From the IMG/VR virus record IMGVR_UViG_3300039106_000143, positions 1 through 32,051 of that record: a stretch of 32,051 nucleotides of DNA; one strand, 5' to 3'. The stretch is from a virus. Position numbers and translations under genes: made by a program. Shown piece after piece: positions 14,167-31,806 of this stretch. Positions within the stretch are counted from its first letter, which is position 1; every line of letters starts with the position of its first letter. The notes under the pieces are model-generated. The model was not told the DNA's origin and did not search any database. It saw nothing but the letters and a program-made list of their open reading frames with translations.

Positions 14167-14379
14167 TCAATAGAAGAAGTCGTCAGGAGTGCCACCAACG
14201 ATTGTGGCTGGAGGTTGTTTGATCTTGATGGTCGTCCCGTTCGGAGTCTGTTCAATCGCTTGATCCGGTCCAGCTACAAGCTGGATCTTGCGAACTGCGT
14301 CGATCAGTTGATTGATTGCGCGAGCATGGTCTGCTTTCATGCCGCGCTCTGCCACCTTAGATGGAAGCGTTACAGCCAT
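14167..14379 (-). CDS. Small tail-operon protein
   Basis: A 70-residue protein. The helix ERGMKADHARAINQLIDAVR followed by QTPNGTTIKIKQPP resembles short stretches found in phage structural proteins, where a helix precedes a beta segment. It ends in PDDFFY. The start overlaps the upstream stop as TAATG, and the stop is three bases before the 896-residue gene. It is probably a minor tail-tip component or chaperone. Confidence 0.6.
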   Translation of the reverse strand: MAVTLPSKVAERGMKADHARAINQLIDAVRKIQLVAGPDQAIEQTPNGTTIKIKQPPATIVGGTPDDFFY

Positions 14380-14744
14380 TAGATCTCGCAGTATTGAGCG
14401 AACACCTTAACGACTGAACCGCTGATAACTGCTCGCAGATACAAGTTAGAATCCACTCGCGGAATCAGCATGAACTCACCGGCGGGAATCTGGAACTGGT
14501 AAGGAATCGAAACTCCAACATACACCGCATTTTGGAGGTCCAAATTCTTAATCAGCACCTTATACGGGAGCGAAAGATCCGCAGCAATCTCAAGCAGTTC
14601 GTCAGAACCGGAACCGATATCTTGGGTATTTTGACCCATGTCGCTTCCGGTCATGTTTGCCGTAGCGGTGAACGTCTGAGGGTTGATTGATGCGCCGTTT
14701 TTGGACGCATACAACCGCGCTGTCATTTCGATTTCGTTTGCCAT
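14379..14744 (-). CDS. Tail-tip small protein, paralogue B
   Basis: A 121-residue protein starting MANEIEMTARLYASKNGASI and ending in YCEI. It aligns along its full length with the next gene upstream (MADEIQMTARLYASKGGAYL to FCEI), with shared GSDMG/GTDMG, SLPYKVLI/SSPYKLLI and RIPAGE-like elements. It is beta-rich and probably a virion protein. The two look like a tandem duplication. Its stop overlaps the next start as TAATG. No family is recognised. Confidence 0.7.
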   Translation of the reverse strand: MANEIEMTARLYASKNGASINPQTFTATANMTGSDMGQNTQDIGSGSDELLEIAADLSLPYKVLIKNLDLQNAVYVGVSIPYQFQIPAGEFMLIPRVDSNLYLRAVISGSVVKVFAQYCEI

Positions 14745-14755
14745 AGGTCAAACGG

Positions 14756-15115
14756 TTAGATCTCGCAGAAAGTCGCTTGGATCGTCACGTTGCTGGTATC
14801 TGCTTTGAGATACAACGTCGCGCTAACGTAAGGCAGCAAGAGCGTCTCTCCAGCGGGAATCCGCATGGTGTAGGTTCCAGAAACAAAACCCAACTCAACG
14901 AAGTTGGTGCTGTCGAGGTTGGAAATCAACAGCTTGTACGGGCTGGAGACATCAACCGGAACGTCCAAAGCTTCAACGGTAGTTCCGATCAATTGGGTCT
15001 GAGAACCCATGTCGGTTCCAACCATCGTTGCGGATTTGGTGTAAGTCACGCTCGGGAGATACGCACCACCTTTGGAAGCGTACAAGCGAGCGGTCATCTG
15101 AATTTCGTCTGCCAT
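14756..15115 (-). CDS. Tail-tip small protein, paralogue A
   Basis: A 119-residue beta-rich protein, paralogous to the adjacent downstream gene. Shared blocks are MTARLYAS at 7-14, M-x-GTDMG, SSPYKLLISNLD, RIPAGE and the CEI end. The copies have diverged in their loops, so the duplication is not recent. It may form a ring or a decoration on the tail tip as homo- or hetero-oligomers with its partner, which is inference. The leader CACTTACACACT before ATG has no Shine-Dalgarno sequence. Confidence 0.7.
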   Translation of the reverse strand: MADEIQMTARLYASKGGAYLPSVTYTKSATMVGTDMGSQTQLIGTTVEALDVPVDVSSPYKLLISNLDSTNFVELGFVSGTYTMRIPAGETLLLPYVSATLYLKADTSNVTIQATFCEI

Positions 15116-17600: not shown

Positions 17601-18068
17601 TTACAGCGTGAAGACAGCGGCAGTGCCAGCAAGAGACGGATACTTGGTCACAGTGATGGTAACCATAGCTTTTCCGCTGCTGGTGAATTTGACGCTTCCA
17701 CCACCGGAATAAACGTAATCACCATCAATGGAAACACCACCAACAGTCACGCCATCGCTACCAGCAATAGCTGCATATCCGTTGACTGTAGGAAGACCGG
17801 CAGCAAGTTTGGCTTGAGCAAAGGTAGCAGCACTTGGGATGAAAGTGACATTGAGCGAAATCCGCTCGTTAGCCGAGACTTGAGCGACAACCTCACCGGC
17901 AGAGTTCTTAATCTGCTCAACATCGGCCTCATGGGTCGCGTCGTAGCTCTCAATGGTGGTGATTGTTCCGCTCGTTAGCGCAGTAAGAGCATTTGAGACT
18001 CCAACCGTATAAAGCTGAATCGTCCCCTTTGCTCCGTAGACTAGTGCTAGACCTTTTGAAAGTGCCAT
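17601..18068 (-). CDS. Major tail (tube) protein candidate
   Basis: A 155-residue beta-rich protein full of Thr, Ser, Val, Gly and Ala, with strand pairs such as GTIQLYTVGVSNALTAL, ISLNVTFIPSAATF and GKAMVTITVTKYPSL. This is the pattern of tail tube subunits that stack as hexameric rings. The gene lies after the terminator-like gene and before the chaperone, as in other siphophages. The leader ACACACTAACAAC before ATG lacks a Shine-Dalgarno sequence, surprising for an abundant protein. Confidence 0.75.
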   Translation of the reverse strand: MALSKGLALVYGAKGTIQLYTVGVSNALTALTSGTITTIESYDATHEADVEQIKNSAGEVVAQVSANERISLNVTFIPSAATFAQAKLAAGLPTVNGYAAIAGSDGVTVGGVSIDGDYVYSGGGSVKFTSSGKAMVTITVTKYPSLAGTAAVFTL

Positions 18069-23463: not shown

Positions 23464-25626
23464 TTAAGCGGTAACCAGAACTTCAGCTTGCGTAGTGTCC
23501 GCAGCGGCAGCACCAAACATGATGTCGTACGAAGCCATATGAGCGCGGCTGGCTCGGCTGTACCACACAGAGAGCAACACAGACAGACCGTTGCTCAGTT
23601 CGACAGTGCGCTGCTCGACGAACTCACCAGCGATCATTCCAACCGGCAGACCGCTCGCAACCGCGATAGCGTCCTGACCGCAAACAAAACCAGCGGTGTT
23701 AGCAACGGCTCCGGTCCAATCATTCTGCTCCAAGATGTTCGCGAATCCGAAATATCCGTTGTTCAACGGACCATAACGGGAATCGGGGAACGGATTGGTT
23801 CCAGCGGCAGCAGTCAACTGACCGGAGAACATCAAACGAGCCATGTGGCTACCATCCAACAGCAACAGCTTCTGTCGGTAATTTTTAGCCAGAGCCAAGA
23901 TCGCGGGGAGATCGCTACTATCGAAGTTGGCAGCAGTACCGATGGTGGTCGCAGTACCATAATTACCAGCAGTCATCACAGCGGTGATCTTCTTGCTAAT
24001 AGCAAGAGCGAAGATCTCAGCGGAACCCTGAGCGAGATCCGACAGAGCGAAACCCTGATTCAACTCCTGCTGAGTGACAGTGAAGGTCTTGGTGATCTGG
24101 TTAACAGTCACCGAGGTAGCAGCAAGAGTGGACTCGTTGTTGGAGTTGTTCTCGAAGTCGGTCAGGTTGTCCTGAGCGTCATCACCACCAGTGAACTTCT
24201 TCACCTGAACCGTAGCGCGGGGACGCAAGTTATCCAGACCAACGTTGCGCGTGAAATTGGCAACCATAGCCAACTTCGAAGTCGCAACAGTGATAACCGA
24301 GTCAGCGAGATAATCGACAACCAAACCAGCAGCGAAAGTGTTCGCGTTCTGGGGAGCGATCAAGCGGGACTGACGCAGCAACTCGCTGTGGTTCTGAATC
24401 AAGAAACCCTTACGCTCCGCACCAGCGCGGAGAGACTTGTGCTTCTCCAGCAGCGGGTTGCCGAGATTCTCAATAACGGGACGCACCGGCTCAGGAGCAG
24501 GAGCGGCGGCGGGAGACTTCATGGAAGCCTCAAGAGCGGAGAGCTTAGCCATGATGGACGCGAGATCAACGGAAGCGGCAGGAGCAGCCGCAGCCGTCAC
24601 AGTAGTGCTATCGGACATATCTTTTGTGTCGGGTTGTTGTGTTGGTTGCGGCAAAGAAACTTTGCCATTTTCGCTGATAGCGTTATTGCCATCCGCAGAA
24701 ACTTTGTCGTCTGGAGAATCATCTTCCTCCAGTTCTTCACGCTCCAATTGAGCGTAAAGAGCGCGGAACCAATCGCGTCCAGCAGCACCACCCCAAAGGT
24801 TGGCAGCGACATCGGCGGGACTATTAGGTTCAGCCTCAAGAAAGCGTTCATTGCGACCCCACCAAGCGTTAGCCTTCTCAACCTTATCTTCGGTGGGGAT
24901 TTCTCCAGCAACGAGGGACTCAGCCTCAAGAACGGTTTGCTTCTCAAGACCTTCACCGGCAAGACCTTCAGCGTATTGCTCAAGACCTCGACGGAGGTTG
25001 TTCTTGACCGTCTCGGGAGCGGTCTTGGTAACAGCGCGGGGATGCCATTTAGCAGCCATCGCAAGCTGTTTGATCGGCTTGTCCACTAATCCAAACTGAA
25101 TCGCTTCAGCGGTGGTGAACCAAGTCTCCGCCTTCATTGCAGCGCGGATGGATTCGGTAGAGCGTCCGGTCTTCTTAGCGTACACTCCAACCAAAACTTC
25201 AGCGTGTTGATCAAGAGCGTCAGCCATTTTCCGCATATCCTCCGAAGTACCAGAAGCCATTCCAGAAGGATCGTGGATCATCATTAGAGCGGCATCAGCC
25301 ATCTCTACTTTATCTCCAGCCAGAGCAATGATCGAAGCAATCGAAGCCGCAATGCCAACCACTCGGGTAGTCACCGGAGCTTTGCGACCGCGCAACTGAT
25401 TGTAGATACTCAGACCGTCCCAGACATTACCACCGGGAGAGTTGATCTCTACCAAGAGCGGACCATTGCCCACTTCGTTGAGAACGTCAGAGAACTGCTT
25501 ACCAGATAGACCGTTACCACCAAACCAATCTTCGCCAATCTGATCGAAGATCTGAATGGTCGCAGTCTCACCAGCGGAAGCCGCAGGAGCGTAATAAAGC
25601 CAATCTGATTTCTTAGTGAAGCTCAT
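23464..25626 (-). CDS. ClpP-like prohead protease fused to major capsid protein
   Basis: A 720-residue fusion. Residues about 20-190 are a ClpP/S49-like head maturation protease, with INSPGG (61-66), predicted nucleophile Ser95 in GIAASIAS, and His118 in MMIHDPSG; the usual third residue aligns with Glu167. Residues about 205-295 (LRRGLEQYAE, then NLWGGAAGRDWF) are a small helical domain that I have seen in phage head proteins. A Pro/Ala-rich segment at 340-390 may act as a scaffold. Residues about 395-720 are the capsid (DNLRPRATVQVKKFTGG, QELNQGFALSDLAQGSAEIF). Met337 (MSDSTT, 24618) could be an internal start giving a 384-residue scaffold-capsid product. Confidence 0.88.
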   Translation of the reverse strand: MSFTKKSDWLYYAPAASAGETATIQIFDQIGEDWFGGNGLSGKQFSDVLNEVGNGPLLVEINSPGGNVWDGLSIYNQLRGRKAPVTTRVVGIAASIASIIALAGDKVEMADAALMMIHDPSGMASGTSEDMRKMADALDQHAEVLVGVYAKKTGRSTESIRAAMKAETWFTTAEAIQFGLVDKPIKQLAMAAKWHPRAVTKTAPETVKNNLRRGLEQYAEGLAGEGLEKQTVLEAESLVAGEIPTEDKVEKANAWWGRNERFLEAEPNSPADVAANLWGGAAGRDWFRALYAQLEREELEEDDSPDDKVSADGNNAISENGKVSLPQPTQQPDTKDMSDSTTVTAAAAPAASVDLASIMAKLSALEASMKSPAAAPAPEPVRPVIENLGNPLLEKHKSLRAGAERKGFLIQNHSELLRQSRLIAPQNANTFAAGLVVDYLADSVITVATSKLAMVANFTRNVGLDNLRPRATVQVKKFTGGDDAQDNLTDFENNSNNESTLAATSVTVNQITKTFTVTQQELNQGFALSDLAQGSAEIFALAISKKITAVMTAGNYGTATTIGTAANFDSSDLPAILALAKNYRQKLLLLDGSHMARLMFSGQLTAAAGTNPFPDSRYGPLNNGYFGFANILEQNDWTGAVANTAGFVCGQDAIAVASGLPVGMIAGEFVEQRTVELSNGLSVLLSVWYSRASRAHMASYDIMFGAAAADTTQAEVLVTA

Positions 25627-27191
25627 TCTGTTTTCTTGGCTCGCGGCTTACGTTGCTTTTTGACTGAAGCGGTCACTTCGGTTTGTTCTACAACAAGCGG
25701 TTGTGATCCACCTTCTGACGGAGCAACTGGAGACGGAGATTCAGAAGAATCATCTTCAATGTCAATAGCCGGTGCAGCACTAGCCGCAGGACGTTCTTTC
25801 TGAATCACCGAAATCTCAGAGACATCAACCCCATATTTGTCAGCGAGTTGACGCACAAACAAAGCTTGCTGTGCTTTTGCTTCTAAAGCAGAACGCCAAT
25901 CAAGTCCACGCGCACCGTAAACTTCATCGTAAGTCAGAATACCAGCTTCCAACTCAGCCAACTGAGCAGCGGAATTGCGGCCAACATCAACATTCGGGGA
26001 GCGGGGAGCGGTGATCGCTACTTCATACCAGTCAGACGGAGCATCATTGAGAGCGGGATCGCTCTTGATAGCGTACTCCATGACATATTCATAAATACGT
26101 CGAGCCGCTGACGACATCACTTGATGCCGAGACTTAAACCACACGGCAGACATATCTAGCGCACCGCGATAGACAGTTCCCTGCATGGACTCGGGATAAA
26201 CAAGAACGTAAGGAATACCAACGCCAGCACAGACCTTTTCTGTCAGTTGACGCCAGTACTCGCGCATATTCACACCGGGACGCTCCGTTGCGAACTGTTC
26301 AAATGAATCACCGTTCTTGAGTACTTTAACAGACGATCCAAAGACCTGCTCGTAATAGTTTTCAGCGGTGTTTTGAGTCGTTCCAGCAGTGCCAGCGCGG
26401 AGGTTGCTTGCTTGAACCTCACCGGAGACGGTTTTGACGATTTGAGCGACGGAAGCACCTAACTTACAAGCTTCCATCTCAAGCTTTTGCAAGTCGTCGA
26501 GATCATGAAGATCATTGATAACCGCAGAGACAAACGGAAGACCTCTAAGCTGACCGGGACGATTCGGCTCGTAAATGTGAACCACCGAGTCAGAGCCAAT
26601 TGAGCGAACGTCAGTAAGATTACCCTGAGTCTTCTCTGACCCGATAAAATACGAGATTGCGCGTCCAGTCTTAGGATCAAATCGGATACCGTCAAACACG
26701 GTCTGGTCTGCCTCCATTCCAGCAGGAGTCGCAATCGACTGAGCTTCGATGAGCTGCAATCTCGGCTTTCCGCTCTCACCTTTGGTCAAAAGGATAAAGC
26801 TCTCGCCATCAAAGAACCAACCGCGAGCCGCTTGGCTCATCAGCGTTGCAAAAGACTGACGCGAACCAATATCGGGATAACGGCTCCAAACATCGAACCA
26901 TTTCTTGGCTTTAAGGTTCCAAGCAGGATCGCTGGAAGCCGGTTGAACCGAGAAGCTAGAGCCAACGGTGTAGCTCTCAAACAAGTCGCCAAGCCTATTC
27001 AGAACAGCATTGTTCTGCTCAAAGAAACGGGACTTACGGACAATGGCTTGTCGAGTTGAACTCGTTACATCAAAGCGAGCCGAAGTGTAAGACGTATCAA
27101 GATACGAACGACGCAACGACTGACCGGCTCCCTCGTATTTGTTAACGGGAGCGGGAAACAGCTTATTAGCAATGGTTTGAAGGATTCCCAT
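25623..27191 (-). CDS. Portal protein, lambda gpB family
   Basis: A 522-residue portal. The N-terminal YEGAGQSLRRSYLDTSYTSA, then FEQNNAVLNRLGDLFESYTV and WFFDGESFILLTKGESGKPR, match lambda B-like portals (PF05136), which form the dodecameric ring for DNA entry at one vertex. RGLPFVSAVINDLHDLDDLQ then KLEMEACKLGASVA is also typical. The C-terminal 60 residues are Pro/Ser/Glu-rich and end in basic KKQRKPRAKKTE, probably flexible. The start overlaps the upstream stop as TAATG, and the stop overlaps the protease-capsid start as ATGA. Confidence 0.94.
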   Translation of the reverse strand: MGILQTIANKLFPAPVNKYEGAGQSLRRSYLDTSYTSARFDVTSSTRQAIVRKSRFFEQNNAVLNRLGDLFESYTVGSSFSVQPASSDPAWNLKAKKWFDVWSRYPDIGSRQSFATLMSQAARGWFFDGESFILLTKGESGKPRLQLIEAQSIATPAGMEADQTVFDGIRFDPKTGRAISYFIGSEKTQGNLTDVRSIGSDSVVHIYEPNRPGQLRGLPFVSAVINDLHDLDDLQKLEMEACKLGASVAQIVKTVSGEVQASNLRAGTAGTTQNTAENYYEQVFGSSVKVLKNGDSFEQFATERPGVNMREYWRQLTEKVCAGVGIPYVLVYPESMQGTVYRGALDMSAVWFKSRHQVMSSAARRIYEYVMEYAIKSDPALNDAPSDWYEVAITAPRSPNVDVGRNSAAQLAELEAGILTYDEVYGARGLDWRSALEAKAQQALFVRQLADKYGVDVSEISVIQKERPAASAAPAIDIEDDSSESPSPVAPSEGGSQPLVVEQTEVTASVKKQRKPRAKKTE

Positions 27192-27624: not shown

Positions 27625-29475
27625 TCAACTACTAGAATTGTCAGAACTAGTAGATGCGAGATCGTTCCACAACATCACCATCGCCAATTGCATCAATTCG
27701 CAGTCATGCAAATGATCGGGCCAGCGAGTGTTTCGCTTGAACCACAAGTGTTTGATTCTTCCCGCTCGATTAGCAGTTGGCTTTAGAACGTGAGAGTCCA
27801 AATGCTTCCAGTATGTATCAGAATCAGCCGCAAATGCCCCCTCAGCCTCAAGTGGTGCAGGGAGACTGCAAACAGTCCATTGATGATTCTCGGACCCTTT
27901 ACGGAGCCGCTGAAGCACTTCCCGCATATGCTCAGTGTCAAATACCAGAAGAGGCTGGACCGCATCAGTCCGCATTGACGTTGATGTCGTAATGCCGAAG
28001 GGATGGATTGCGCCAGTCTTACTGGTGAATCGCGCTCCGGTTTCTCGGCCTTTCATTGGCATCCAACCAATAAGCATTGGCTTTCTCAATCCTCCTTCTG
28101 GTGGATACCGGAGACCGCAGGGATAAGTGATCGGGTTTCCGCTGCTTTGTGAGAACTCAGCACAAGCATCATAAACGGCTTGTGTGTTGAAACCGGAGTC
28201 AATCCCAACGTCCATGTCATGCACGTTGTATTGAAGTTGAATCCGTCGAAGTGCAGCGAAATCGTCTGCATGACCAGCAGCGACAAGACGCGAATTGCCT
28301 TTGCTCCACTCTCGACAAACCCACCAGACAAACGGAGCGGCGGCTTGAACGTCTGCGGTTAGGTAGCGTCTGGCTTCGGGGAGTCCAGCATCAGACACGA
28401 TCTCAACTCGCTCCTGTTGAGATTCTTGGTTTTCCCACGGTTCCGACAACATTCCGTTAATGAATCCCTGCAACCCCATCATTGAAGCTTTGGCTTCCAA
28501 GAACGAGACGGCCAAGTGTCCCCAAGTGCATTTACGATCCGGTGAGTAAAGAGACGACAAGTGGTAAGATCGGACACTCGGCAAGCTCGCTTGATTCTCG
28601 GCAATCCACTTTCCATGGCGCAACGCTGCGACTTTGTGGGAATCCGAAATCTTACCCTGACAAAGCTGGCAAACGTAGTGCGCTGACGACCGGATGCGCT
28701 GCCAGTCTGGTTTTCCGTCTTCGGTCTTCGCGTTGTCCCAAGTGACTTGCTTCCACTCCAACTTGATGTATTCCGCGCAATGCGGACACGGGATGTAATA
28801 CCGTCGCTGGTCTCCCCTTAAATAACGCTGCCAGATTCTGCCTTCGGAGGTTGTCGGAGTGCTGGTGAAGAAGGCTTTGGAACTGCTGAACGCTTTAAGC
28901 CGCTGTTCTGCGAGGTCCAAAGCGTCAGCTTCCTTAGCGGTTGCTTCAGCGAATTTGTCCACCTCATCTGCGACCAAGATTCGCACCGGTCGGGACGCTA
29001 GATTTGCCGGTGAGTTTGACCCCACAAAGGTCAACGTGCAGCGGTCGAATTGCTGCTCCAGATTAGTCATCTGGTCTTTGTCTGAAGGGAACCGCTTCAC
29101 CAATGCGGGACAGTCTTCCAGAAGCGGCATCCAGCGGGATTTGCTGAACGAGCGAGCCAGATTCTCGGATGGCATCAACCACAGTGCGGGACTCGGTTCT
29201 GTGTCGATAGCCCAAGCCAATCCAGCCATGAGCGTCGTCGTCTTGGAGGTTTGAGACCCCCAACACAAAGTCACCTCAGAGACTGACGGGTCTTTCCAGC
29301 ACTCAAGCGGCTCTCGGCAATATGGACGAACAGCGGTGGAGAATGGACCGGGATGTTCAGTCTGTCGTTGAGTCAGCGTCAGGTTGGCTTCGCTCCACTC
29401 GACAACCGTTTGCCGTGGAGACGGACGGTAGATCTGTCTTCTGAACTCTAGGATTTCGCGCTGTAGATCAAGCAT
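27625..29475 (-). CDS. Terminase large subunit, lambda GpA type
   Basis: A 616-residue packaging motor protein. The ATPase carries WGSQTSKTT at 72-80 (Walker A-like) and ILVADEVDKF at 166-175 (Walker B), then TSTPTT. CPHC at 230-233, followed by YVCQLCQGK, forms a zinc-ribbon-like insertion seen in GpA terminases. The nuclease region has YLTADVQ and MDVGIDSGFNTQAVYDAC, with Asp residues for metal binding. GpA enzymes often cut at cos sites, though headful cutting cannot be excluded here. The start overlaps the upstream stop as TGATG. Confidence 0.95.
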   Translation of the reverse strand: MLDLQREILEFRRQIYRPSPRQTVVEWSEANLTLTQRQTEHPGPFSTAVRPYCREPLECWKDPSVSEVTLCWGSQTSKTTTLMAGLAWAIDTEPSPALWLMPSENLARSFSKSRWMPLLEDCPALVKRFPSDKDQMTNLEQQFDRCTLTFVGSNSPANLASRPVRILVADEVDKFAEATAKEADALDLAEQRLKAFSSSKAFFTSTPTTSEGRIWQRYLRGDQRRYYIPCPHCAEYIKLEWKQVTWDNAKTEDGKPDWQRIRSSAHYVCQLCQGKISDSHKVAALRHGKWIAENQASLPSVRSYHLSSLYSPDRKCTWGHLAVSFLEAKASMMGLQGFINGMLSEPWENQESQQERVEIVSDAGLPEARRYLTADVQAAAPFVWWVCREWSKGNSRLVAAGHADDFAALRRIQLQYNVHDMDVGIDSGFNTQAVYDACAEFSQSSGNPITYPCGLRYPPEGGLRKPMLIGWMPMKGRETGARFTSKTGAIHPFGITTSTSMRTDAVQPLLVFDTEHMREVLQRLRKGSENHQWTVCSLPAPLEAEGAFAADSDTYWKHLDSHVLKPTANRAGRIKHLWFKRNTRWPDHLHDCELMQLAMVMLWNDLASTSSDNSSS

Positions 29476-29969
29476 CAGAACAACTCCGTATTTGATTCTT
29501 CGATCCGGTGCTTTCGAGCTTCACTCATATTCAAGAACGCCATTCGCTCGTTGACCCCATCCATGAGCTTGTCCCGCAACTGCACGTTGCAACCCCAAGT
29601 TGCGTTCTCATTGAAGATCTCAACCATCAGCACCAGACCGTCTGGCTCCAAGTGCAGGATTCCCCAGAACGGAATCTTGCAATGCTTGGTAATCTCAAGA
29701 GCGGCTTGGAGCTTAGACCATGAAATCATCCATTGGTTGCCGAAGGTTGATTCCAGTTTCGCCAGTCCGTAATTCCGAGATTTCACCTCATAACTTCCGG
29801 TAATTACGCCAGAGTTTTGGTTCCAGATGAATCCGTCGATGCGGGAAGGCTTATCGTCTGCGATTGGCAAAAACCGGAGAACCGTGTCGCGTTCAATGGC
29901 TTTGAGCGCGATCTTGTTCTGACGGAGTGCTTCTAGCCCTCGCGGCTTCTGGCAGTTCAGGATTTCCAT
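29475..29969 (-). CDS. PD-(D/E)XK nuclease-like protein
   Basis: A 164-residue protein from the ATG at 29969, one-base overlap (TAATG) with the methyltransferase. RIDGFIWNQ (Asp45) followed by TGSYEVKSRN (Glu61, Lys63) gives the D-x(n)-E-x-K core of PD-(D/E)XK nucleases, and SWSKLQAALEI follows as the expected helix. It could be a resolvase-like, VRR-like or restriction-type nuclease. Its place between a DNA methyltransferase and the terminase suggests it works with one of them. A longer frame exists to 30035 but is less likely. The fold call is by motif only. Confidence 0.7.
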   Translation of the reverse strand: MEILNCQKPRGLEALRQNKIALKAIERDTVLRFLPIADDKPSRIDGFIWNQNSGVITGSYEVKSRNYGLAKLESTFGNQWMISWSKLQAALEITKHCKIPFWGILHLEPDGLVLMVEIFNENATWGCNVQLRDKLMDGVNERMAFLNMSEARKHRIEESNTELF

Positions 29970-31195
29970 TAAACCTTTTCTAGAACCGCCTTTTTGCCGG
30001 TGAAGTCCTCCCAACGCTTTACGATCACGTCGCAATACTTGGGATCAAGCTCCATCAGACGGGCTTTGCGACTAAGACGCTCACAAGCGATTGCGGTGGT
30101 TCCAGAGCCTCCAAAGAGATCAAGAATAACATCATTTGCTTTGCTGCTATTTCCAATCTGGTATTCAAATAGCTCAACCGGCTTCATCGTTGGGTGAAGC
30201 TCGCTTTTCGCTGGTTTTTTGAAATCTAGGACAGTCGTTTGGCTTCTGTCTGAACCCCAATAATGAGACGCACCGTCTTTCCACCCATACAGGCACGGTT
30301 CGTGTTTCCAATGGTAATCGCTTCTGCCGATTGCAAACACCGATTTTACCCAAACCAAACACTGTCTTATTTTCCATTCTACATCAATGCAAGCTCCTCT
30401 GAAGTTGTATCCTTCTGAGTCTGCATGCCAAATGTAGAAAACAGCACCGTCCCGCATCACTGAGTTTGCTGTTGAATAAACATCTCTAAGGAATTGGCGG
30501 AAATCGCCATCAGACATCTTGTCGTTCTGGATTCCAAAAGTTGACTCGTCTTTTCTAGCCTTACCTGCCTTCTGGAGCATTTCATTCTTAGCTGTCATGT
30601 CCACGTTGTAAGGTGGATCAGTTATTAACAGATCAGCCAAGTCATCGCCCATTAAACGCTTTGCGCTTTCAATACTTGTAGAATCTCCACACATCAGCCG
30701 GTGATTCCCAAGAATCCAAACATCTCCAAGCTTGGTGATTGGCTCGACCGGAACTTCTGGAGTCTGGTCTGGATCGGTTTCTCCTTCGACAACTTCTGGT
30801 TCGAGCAACTCGGCAAGTTCATCGTCCGAGAATCCGGTGAGGTCCATGCTAAAACCGTCTTCCTGCAAAGACTCTAGTTCAGACCGTAACATTTGATCGT
30901 CCCATCCAGCATTGAGAGCCAGCTTGTTATCCGCGATGACGTAGGCTCGGACTTGGGATGAAGTTAGGTGTCCGAGTCGGATGCATGGAACGGTTTCAAG
31001 CCCAAGCTTTCTTGCCGCCATCACTCGACCGTGACCGGCAATGATTGTTCCATCCGCATCAATCAAGACTGGATTGGTGAATCCAAACTCTCGGATGGAA
31101 CCCGCGATCTGCGAGACCTGCTCGTCAGAGTGTGTTCGGGAATTGCGAGCGTAAGGGATAAGGCTGGAGACCAGCAGGTGTTCAATTTGATTCAT
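29969..31195 (-). CDS. ParB-like domain fused to DNA methyltransferase
   Basis: A 408-residue protein. Residues 1-115 are a ParB/Srx-like domain (SIREFGFTNPVLIDADGT, AGHGRVMAARKLGLETVPCI, ADNKLALNAGWD). Residues about 155-400 are an N6-adenine or N4-cytosine methyltransferase of the beta order, with TDPPYN at 192-197 before FGGSGTT at 361-367 and a target region between. The D-P-P-Y motif is usual for adenine or N4-cytosine targets. The ATG at 31195 gives an ATGA overlap with the small terminase candidate. Phages use such enzymes to mask their DNA from restriction or to mark packaging or replication. Confidence 0.92.
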   Translation of the reverse strand: MNQIEHLLVSSLIPYARNSRTHSDEQVSQIAGSIREFGFTNPVLIDADGTIIAGHGRVMAARKLGLETVPCIRLGHLTSSQVRAYVIADNKLALNAGWDDQMLRSELESLQEDGFSMDLTGFSDDELAELLEPEVVEGETDPDQTPEVPVEPITKLGDVWILGNHRLMCGDSTSIESAKRLMGDDLADLLITDPPYNVDMTAKNEMLQKAGKARKDESTFGIQNDKMSDGDFRQFLRDVYSTANSVMRDGAVFYIWHADSEGYNFRGACIDVEWKIRQCLVWVKSVFAIGRSDYHWKHEPCLYGWKDGASHYWGSDRSQTTVLDFKKPAKSELHPTMKPVELFEYQIGNSSKANDVILDLFGGSGTTAIACERLSRKARLMELDPKYCDVIVKRWEDFTGKKAVLEKV

Positions 31196-31806
31196 TTCCA
31201 AGGATCGGTTGAGTGCAGAGTTTTCAGACATACTTCTTGAACCCAACGCTCTAGTTCGCGTTCAGCGTGTTCTGGGTCGTGAGGAGCAATTCTACCGGCA
31301 AGCTGTTTTGGCATCGACTTAAGCAGTTGAGCTACGGACCCGTCATGGTCTTGCATTACCTTTTTGACCCAATCACCGGAGACTAGTCGCTTCTCTCGTT
31401 CTGCGAGGTCGAGAACGTCTTTGCGAGCGTTGATCAGGTTCTTTGCCGCAGTTGCGTGAACTGAGACCATACGAGCAGCGTCGAGAGACTTTGAGCGTAG
31501 GGATTGAACCGCCAGACCGTAAGACGCTCGCTCAATCTGCTTCTGGCGTTCGTATGCTCCCTGCGGAGTACTTTCAGCAACAATGGAAGGATTAACCGGA
31601 GCTTCGGATTCTGGTGGCCGATATGGACCCTCAGAAGGCTCTGATCGAATGTGGCTCGCTTCGATAGCAGCCTTTCTCCTTTGCGCTCCAGATCCACGCC
31701 AAGCGTCAGCGGCTTCGGCTGAGTCCAACGGCATTCCTTTGGAGACCAACTGAGAGACTCGACCTTTGGTTAGACCGGAATGTTTGACGTACTCGCTCTG
31801 TGTCAT
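31192..31806 (-). CDS. Putative terminase small subunit
   Basis: A 204-residue protein. The N-terminus MTQSEYVKHSGLTKGRVSQL followed by VSKGMPL is an HTH of the Nu1/MerR-like type used to recognise the packaging site. A Pro/Ser/Glu-rich linker (55-80) is followed by helical oligomerisation-like segments (AYERQKQIERASYGL, KNLINARKDVLDLAEREKRL). The place upstream of the large terminase supports the call, although two other genes lie between. ATGA overlaps on both sides. Confidence 0.75.
   Translation of the reverse strand: MTQSEYVKHSGLTKGRVSQLVSKGMPLDSAEAADAWRGSGAQRRKAAIEASHIRSEPSEGPYRPPESEAPVNPSIVAESTPQGAYERQKQIERASYGLAVQSLRSKSLDAARMVSVHATAAKNLINARKDVLDLAEREKRLVSGDWVKKVMQDHDGSVAQLLKSMPKQLAGRIAPHDPEHAERELERWVQEVCLKTLHSTDPWK

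Follow-up and report, generated by a model that had tools for sequence, protein, structure and literature searches.

A protease-coat fusion gene of a tailed phage and evidence for a nested start at its junction

Protease-coat fusions raise a dosage puzzle: a head is built from hundreds of coat subunits, and little protease is needed. Fused protease-scaffold-coat genes are already known (Gifsy-2; NCBIfam NF045540). Effantin et al. 2010 (Virology 402:355) reportedly described a 'tripartite capsid gene' in the Salmonella phage Gifsy-2. In this study, we analyzed a gene of this kind in a 32,051-nt stretch of viral DNA, hereafter the window (IMG/VR virus record IMGVR_UViG_3300039106_000143, positions 1 to 32,051), and asked how one fused frame could supply protease and coat in such different amounts.

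The fused gene and its neighborhood

The gene lies at 23464-25626 on the minus strand, stop codon included. It is a single 720-aa ORF that opens with the ATG at 25626 and contains no internal stop; the plus-strand frame over the same interval contains stops. The first-pass annotation had given the correct limits and left the strand unstated. It had also read a protease, a helical module, a scaffold-like segment and a coat in one frame, which is borne out by the intact ORF. The upstream gene order of this 32-kb virus record is lambda-like, with a GpA-type terminase large subunit (27625-29475, minus strand; Pfam PF05876, 1.2e-66), a small gene, a lambda-family portal protein (25623-27191, minus strand; Pfam PF05136, 7.3e-45) that overlaps its downstream neighbor by 4 nt, and then the fused gene. 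Protease, scaffold-like segment and coat thus follow the portal gene in one uninterrupted frame, the arrangement that marks a fusion of the Gifsy-2 type. We read the fused gene as serving head assembly in a tailed phage whose head module is lambda-like.

The scan counted 479 relatives, and the tally of uninterrupted fusions was taken from the loci that were fetched. Protease and coat shared one uninterrupted frame in 187 fetched loci, 140 of them distinct. Exceptions were L048, in which an in-frame TAG at residue 307 (around 1060) precedes an intact junction hairpin and Met337, and L108, in which the frame changes after the protease (around 2100), between protease and module. A stop ahead of an intact Met337, as in L048, agrees with an internal start at this codon, but the TAG could be a sequencing error.

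Three other features of the window were observed. A 533-aa open frame with a TTG start runs antisense to the fused gene (23488-25089, plus strand) and is probably a by-product of codon use. The adjacent genes at 14379-14744 and 14756-15115 (minus strand) look like a tandem duplication, since their products (121 and 119 aa) resemble each other. Near the terminase gene, an ORF at 29969-31246 (minus strand) encodes a ParB-N-like domain fused to an N6/N4 DNA methylase.

Domains of the 720-residue protein

Residues 1-195 (25042-25626, minus strand) form a ClpP-type (S14-like) head maturation protease. This part matched Pfam PF00574 (CLP_protease; 3.6e-33, 115.4 bits with a cutoff of 20.2), PHROG phrog_94 (head maturation protease; 1.3e-62) and NCBIfam NF045542 (Clp_rel_HeadMat; 2e-53, 180.7 bits with a cutoff of 120). 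The Ser95 and His118 codons, on which the ClpP-like assignment of the first-pass annotation was based, are found at 25342-25344 and 25273-25275 (minus strand), and both residues are invariant in 36 aligned relatives, as is E167-T168-W169. The canonical ClpP Asp position was occupied by Thr168, after the invariant Glu167, in a hand alignment. The ETW motif is also present in Gifsy-2 and L231.

A separate helical domain had been expected at about residues 205-295. Residues 201-300 (24727-25026, minus strand) were modeled as six helices with a pLDDT of about 75-89, the sole part of the full-length model above 80. The domain matched columns about 160-270 of phrog_2859 at 2.6e-5, with the signature W..R...F / LWGG..G..W, and relatives matched the same columns at 2e-30, 5e-22, 4e-14 and 3.5e-12. 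No Pfam family covers this LWGG module. Relatives of the module were found in 89 phage records, and its recurrence was followed at 24727-25026 of the window, L082-L085 and L275-L279. It precedes an S78 protease in Pontimonas phiPsal1, fronts S78-protease/coat fusions in Roseobacter CRP-811 and kin, lies within a scaffold-like Vibrio phage protein, and forms a stand-alone 102-aa gene in S-CBS4. It also occurs outside head genes, with ParB-like and DNA methyltransferase neighbors. Because L229 and L205 keep protease and coat without it, the module is dispensable for the fusion. Common to head proteases of different families and to coat fusions, the LWGG module is a candidate head-assembly accessory domain.

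The Pro/Ala-rich segment noticed at first pass is present at residues 337-384 (24475-24618, minus strand), and its sequence is scaffold-like (delta-domain-like). One helix, at 355-369, was predicted in it by a low-confidence model.

The coat domain, residues 385-720 (23467-24474, minus strand), was assigned indirectly. Direct searches with this domain gave no match in Pfam or PHROG, in the PDB by sequence, or in cultured phages by tblastn. A scan of genome contigs with the coat alignment found none, and hhalign of this alignment (Neff 1.45) against the Pontimonas coat, Gifsy-2 and Moulinsart proteins gave no signal. The coat profile matched, at 1.4e-7, a separate 301-aa coat gene of L270, a genome of the phylum Verrucomicrobiota. 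This gene, which matched phrog_283 ('major head protein') at 2.9e-22, is preceded by an ORF that encodes a ClpP protease separately. Two structure predictions were run, and the coat was of low confidence in both; the coat model (pLDDT 46, pTM 0.32) has an HK97-like order of secondary structure elements. When this low-confidence model was searched with Foldseek, each of the 12 best PDB matches was a head or virion protein of a phage, with coat proteins in the majority, and the best had an E value of 2.3e-3 and a probability of 0.91. These results, transitive homology together with a low-confidence model, are good but indirect evidence that residues 385-720 are the coat protein, and they agree with the capsid domain proposed at first pass.

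Sequence evidence for internal initiation at Met337

One protease for every coat subunit would be costly, and an internal start at Met337 or self-cleavage had been suggested as a likely solution. The Met337 ATG is at 24616-24618 (minus strand), the position given by the first-pass annotation. Met was found there in 141/141 distinct relatives, flanked by residues that vary: N, D, H, T, K or I before it, and S, T, E or P after it. Initiation at this codon would open a nested 384-aa frame of scaffold-like stretch and coat (23464-24618, minus strand), which we propose as the main product.

The linker before Met337 (residues 301-336; 24619-24726, minus strand) is variable and also carries an RNA element. 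Nowhere else in the gene is amino-acid conservation or synonymous change as low. Among pairs sharing the amino acid, synonymous change at codons 317-329 was 11-17% of expectation, the minimum of the gene, compared with 64% in the lowest of the 10-codon windows away from the junction. Because amino-acid conservation is low at these codons, the constraint acts on nucleotides.

The RNA element contains a hairpin of 7 bp with a 3-nt loop, GGCAAAG-TTT-CTTTGCC (24650-24666, minus strand), which shows compensatory changes. In 24 distinct sequences, 93.5% of the cells were paired, compared with 29-49% when the hairpin was slid, and 27 cells carried double changes, compared with 7.6 in shuffles. Since the sequences are related, the shuffles overstate the significance of the double changes; the slid control is free of that weakness. 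The sole differences between GGCGTGGACTCCACGCC and GGCATGGACTCCATGCC are two paired bases, which form a compensatory pair. A 101-nt stretch with the hairpin had an unremarkable folding energy (z -0.67). Genome-wide, perfect 7-bp hairpins were not in excess (10 versus 8), so the hairpin is notable through its conservation and not through its existence. A terminator-like match on the opposite strand at 24650-24666 was rejected, as it is the same hairpin read backwards and relatives do not retain its T tract.

The hairpin is followed by a CA-rich, G-poor, unstructured leader (24619-24649, minus strand). G made up 8% of the 25 nt before Met337, against a family mean of 28%; between hairpin and ATG it made up 7% over the family, against 28% for all codons. 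Of 690 codon positions, only two had less structure than the region from -27 to +18 around Met337, and none of the 17 internal ATGs had less. No sigma-70-like promoter was found around the internal start. Because there is no Shine-Dalgarno site at Met337, its use depends on initiation that is independent of such a site. Most predicted genes of the phage likewise lack a Shine-Dalgarno site, and the leaders of several are CA-rich and G-poor (for example at the starts at 18068, 15115 and 1042), which suggests a host whose translation can begin in the absence of such pairing. The Met337 leader resembles the leaders of the phage's own genes and that of the separate coat gene of L270 (AACCCAAAACCTAACCCACCAAACCACCCACTCAAATG). 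The invariant Met, the synonymous constraint and the covarying hairpin provide strong comparative evidence that Met337 would act as a real internal start.

The MSDSTT sequence at this start had also been read as the N-terminus of an ancestral capsid gene. Verrucomicrobiota relatives do have a separate coat gene, which agrees with this idea in part. However, the protease ORF of L270 closes with a coil-like scaffold, and its coat gene begins further on. Met337 therefore resembles a nested start of the lambda Nu3 type and is not simply an old coat start.

The hairpin and leader may have a role other than guiding initiation directly. They could be a processing or stabilizing site for the coat mRNA, or a pausing or spacing element. 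A processing site would agree with the succession of a structured element and a CA-rich stretch that is single-stranded, and the hairpin stands 25-31 nt upstream of the Met337 ATG, outside the usual initiation footprint. However, the invariant ATG is left unexplained unless the ATG is also used, in which case this role is compatible with internal initiation, and no Rfam family matched. We consider such a role possible, if doubtful.

Internal initiation at Met337 was also weighed against a single polyprotein, in which the 720-aa form alone is made, every coat subunit carries a protease, and self-cleavage removes residues 1 to about 390. This would agree with a fused frame that is intact in nearly all fetched relatives, with the lack of a Shine-Dalgarno site at Met337, and with Gifsy-2 as a precedent, on one possible reading of its 'tripartite' gene. 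However, a polyprotein leaves unexplained the invariant Met amid variable residues, the synonymous constraint and the covarying hairpin, and it gives no reason for the internal ATGs with strong Shine-Dalgarno sites in the separate fusions described below. We regard it as quite unlikely. The low synonymous change could in principle reflect recombination that spread a few linker cassettes instead of constraint on the RNA, and the linker does occur as few allele types, common to otherwise different genomes. Yet pairing is kept across the alleles by double changes, including the pair that differs only at two paired bases, and G321 and P326 keep one codon in all types, so that recombination is a very improbable cause. 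An assembly or sequencing error that joined two frames, which the first-pass annotation had raised against its own reading and for which single broken copies (L048 and L108) were the only support found, is refuted by the 187 fetched relatives (140 distinct) with an intact fusion, and its probability is negligible.

Proposed products and comparison with known systems

The analysis shows the fused frame, the domains that it encodes, a start codon that never varies, a hairpin under constraint with covarying pairs, and equivalent sites in separate fusions; from these we infer the use of Met337, the ratio of products, their co-assembly and the cleavage site. The gene probably encodes two co-terminal proteins that are assembled together, a minor one of 720 aa and a major one of 384 aa started at Met337. 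Initiation at 25626 would give the minor protein. Initiation at Met337, from the unstructured CA-rich leader downstream of the hairpin, would give the major protein, which consists of the scaffold-like stretch and the coat. The long form would enter the procapsid wall through its coat domain and hold its ClpP-type protease and LWGG module in the interior, and after assembly the protease would remove the scaffold-like stretch. If this is true, a single gene delivers a small number of coat subunits that bear the protease and a large number that do not, and a shorter coat product is to be expected when such phages are annotated or studied by proteomics.

Other fusions, with other coats or proteases, were examined because they are fusions and not because they carry a signal. 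In CRP-811 (Met404, TAAGGAG), CRP-831/822 (Met537, AAGGAG), CRP-406 (Met356, GGAGG) and a Deltaproteobacteria MAG (Met261, AAGGAGG), the internal ATG whose Shine-Dalgarno match ranks first in the ORF, or first once the ORF's own start is set aside, falls at the protease/scaffold junction. In the cyanophages S-CBS1 and S-CBS3, the ATGs of Met408 and Met409, respectively, have a CA-rich leader and no Shine-Dalgarno site. As the Roseobacter set is related, the other fusions amount to about three to four separate cases. On balance, we lean towards the view that protease-coat fusions generally carry a nested start at the junction, equipped with a Shine-Dalgarno site or, in hosts poor in such sites, with a hairpin and a CA-rich leader, and that the hairpin is a new cis-acting translation element. 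A conserved internal start, seen in more than one fusion, would be a concrete and testable answer to the dosage puzzle, and the covarying hairpin would offer a compact model of how ribosomes initiate where no Shine-Dalgarno site is present. In the open literature searched, which did not include the Gifsy-2 tripartite-gene paper, we found no description of such a nested start in protease-coat fusions.

The first-pass annotation had considered the fusion unusual. It is of a kind already known, and less unusual than was thought; the evidence for the Met337 start is new. As in the window, a single frame of Gifsy-2 encodes a ClpP-type protease, a scaffold and a coat. This frame is 696 aa long and immediately follows the portal gene, and its Pfam matches are PF00574 (28-202) and a coat family (389-693). 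Unlike the window, Gifsy-2 is without the LWGG module and its coat belongs to PF25209; the proteases are about 36% identical. Its internal start signal is weaker, with AGGAG before Met221, which is not the best site in the ORF. NF045540 (ClpP-like prohead protease/major capsid protein fusion protein) has the same architecture by name. The window protein scored 188.8 bits against this family, short of the cutoff of 475, with the protease part (residues 22-211) aligned and the coat half unaligned.

The Roseobacter phages CRP-811, -822, -831 and -406 and the cyanophages S-CBS1 and S-CBS3 resemble the window in having an ORF with LWGG module and coat after the portal gene, and their junction has an internal start of the type proposed for the window. 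A protease domain of the S78 type was seen in the Roseobacter 'major capsid protein' ORFs, and none was detected by Pfam in S-CBS1. In contrast to the window, the module of these fusions is N-terminal and the coat is PF05065. Their fusion formed separately from that of the window.

The Akkermansia phage Moulinsart has the order terminase-portal-ClpP protease, as in the window. Unlike the window, both Moulinsart and L270 have protease and coat as separate genes and no LWGG module. The nearest genome-contig relative of the protease (53%) is L230, at the end of an Akkermansia muciniphila MAG contig. L230 continues past the protease with a linker, an internal Met and 'RRIENL', which resembles the start of the window coat, before the contig ends. 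This hints at a Verrucomicrobiota host range.

In lambda C/Nu3 and herpesvirus UL26/UL26.5, an in-frame nested start in a protease gene produces an abundant assembly protein without the protease. The nested product of these systems is scaffold only, whereas that of the window, by analogy, would include the coat.
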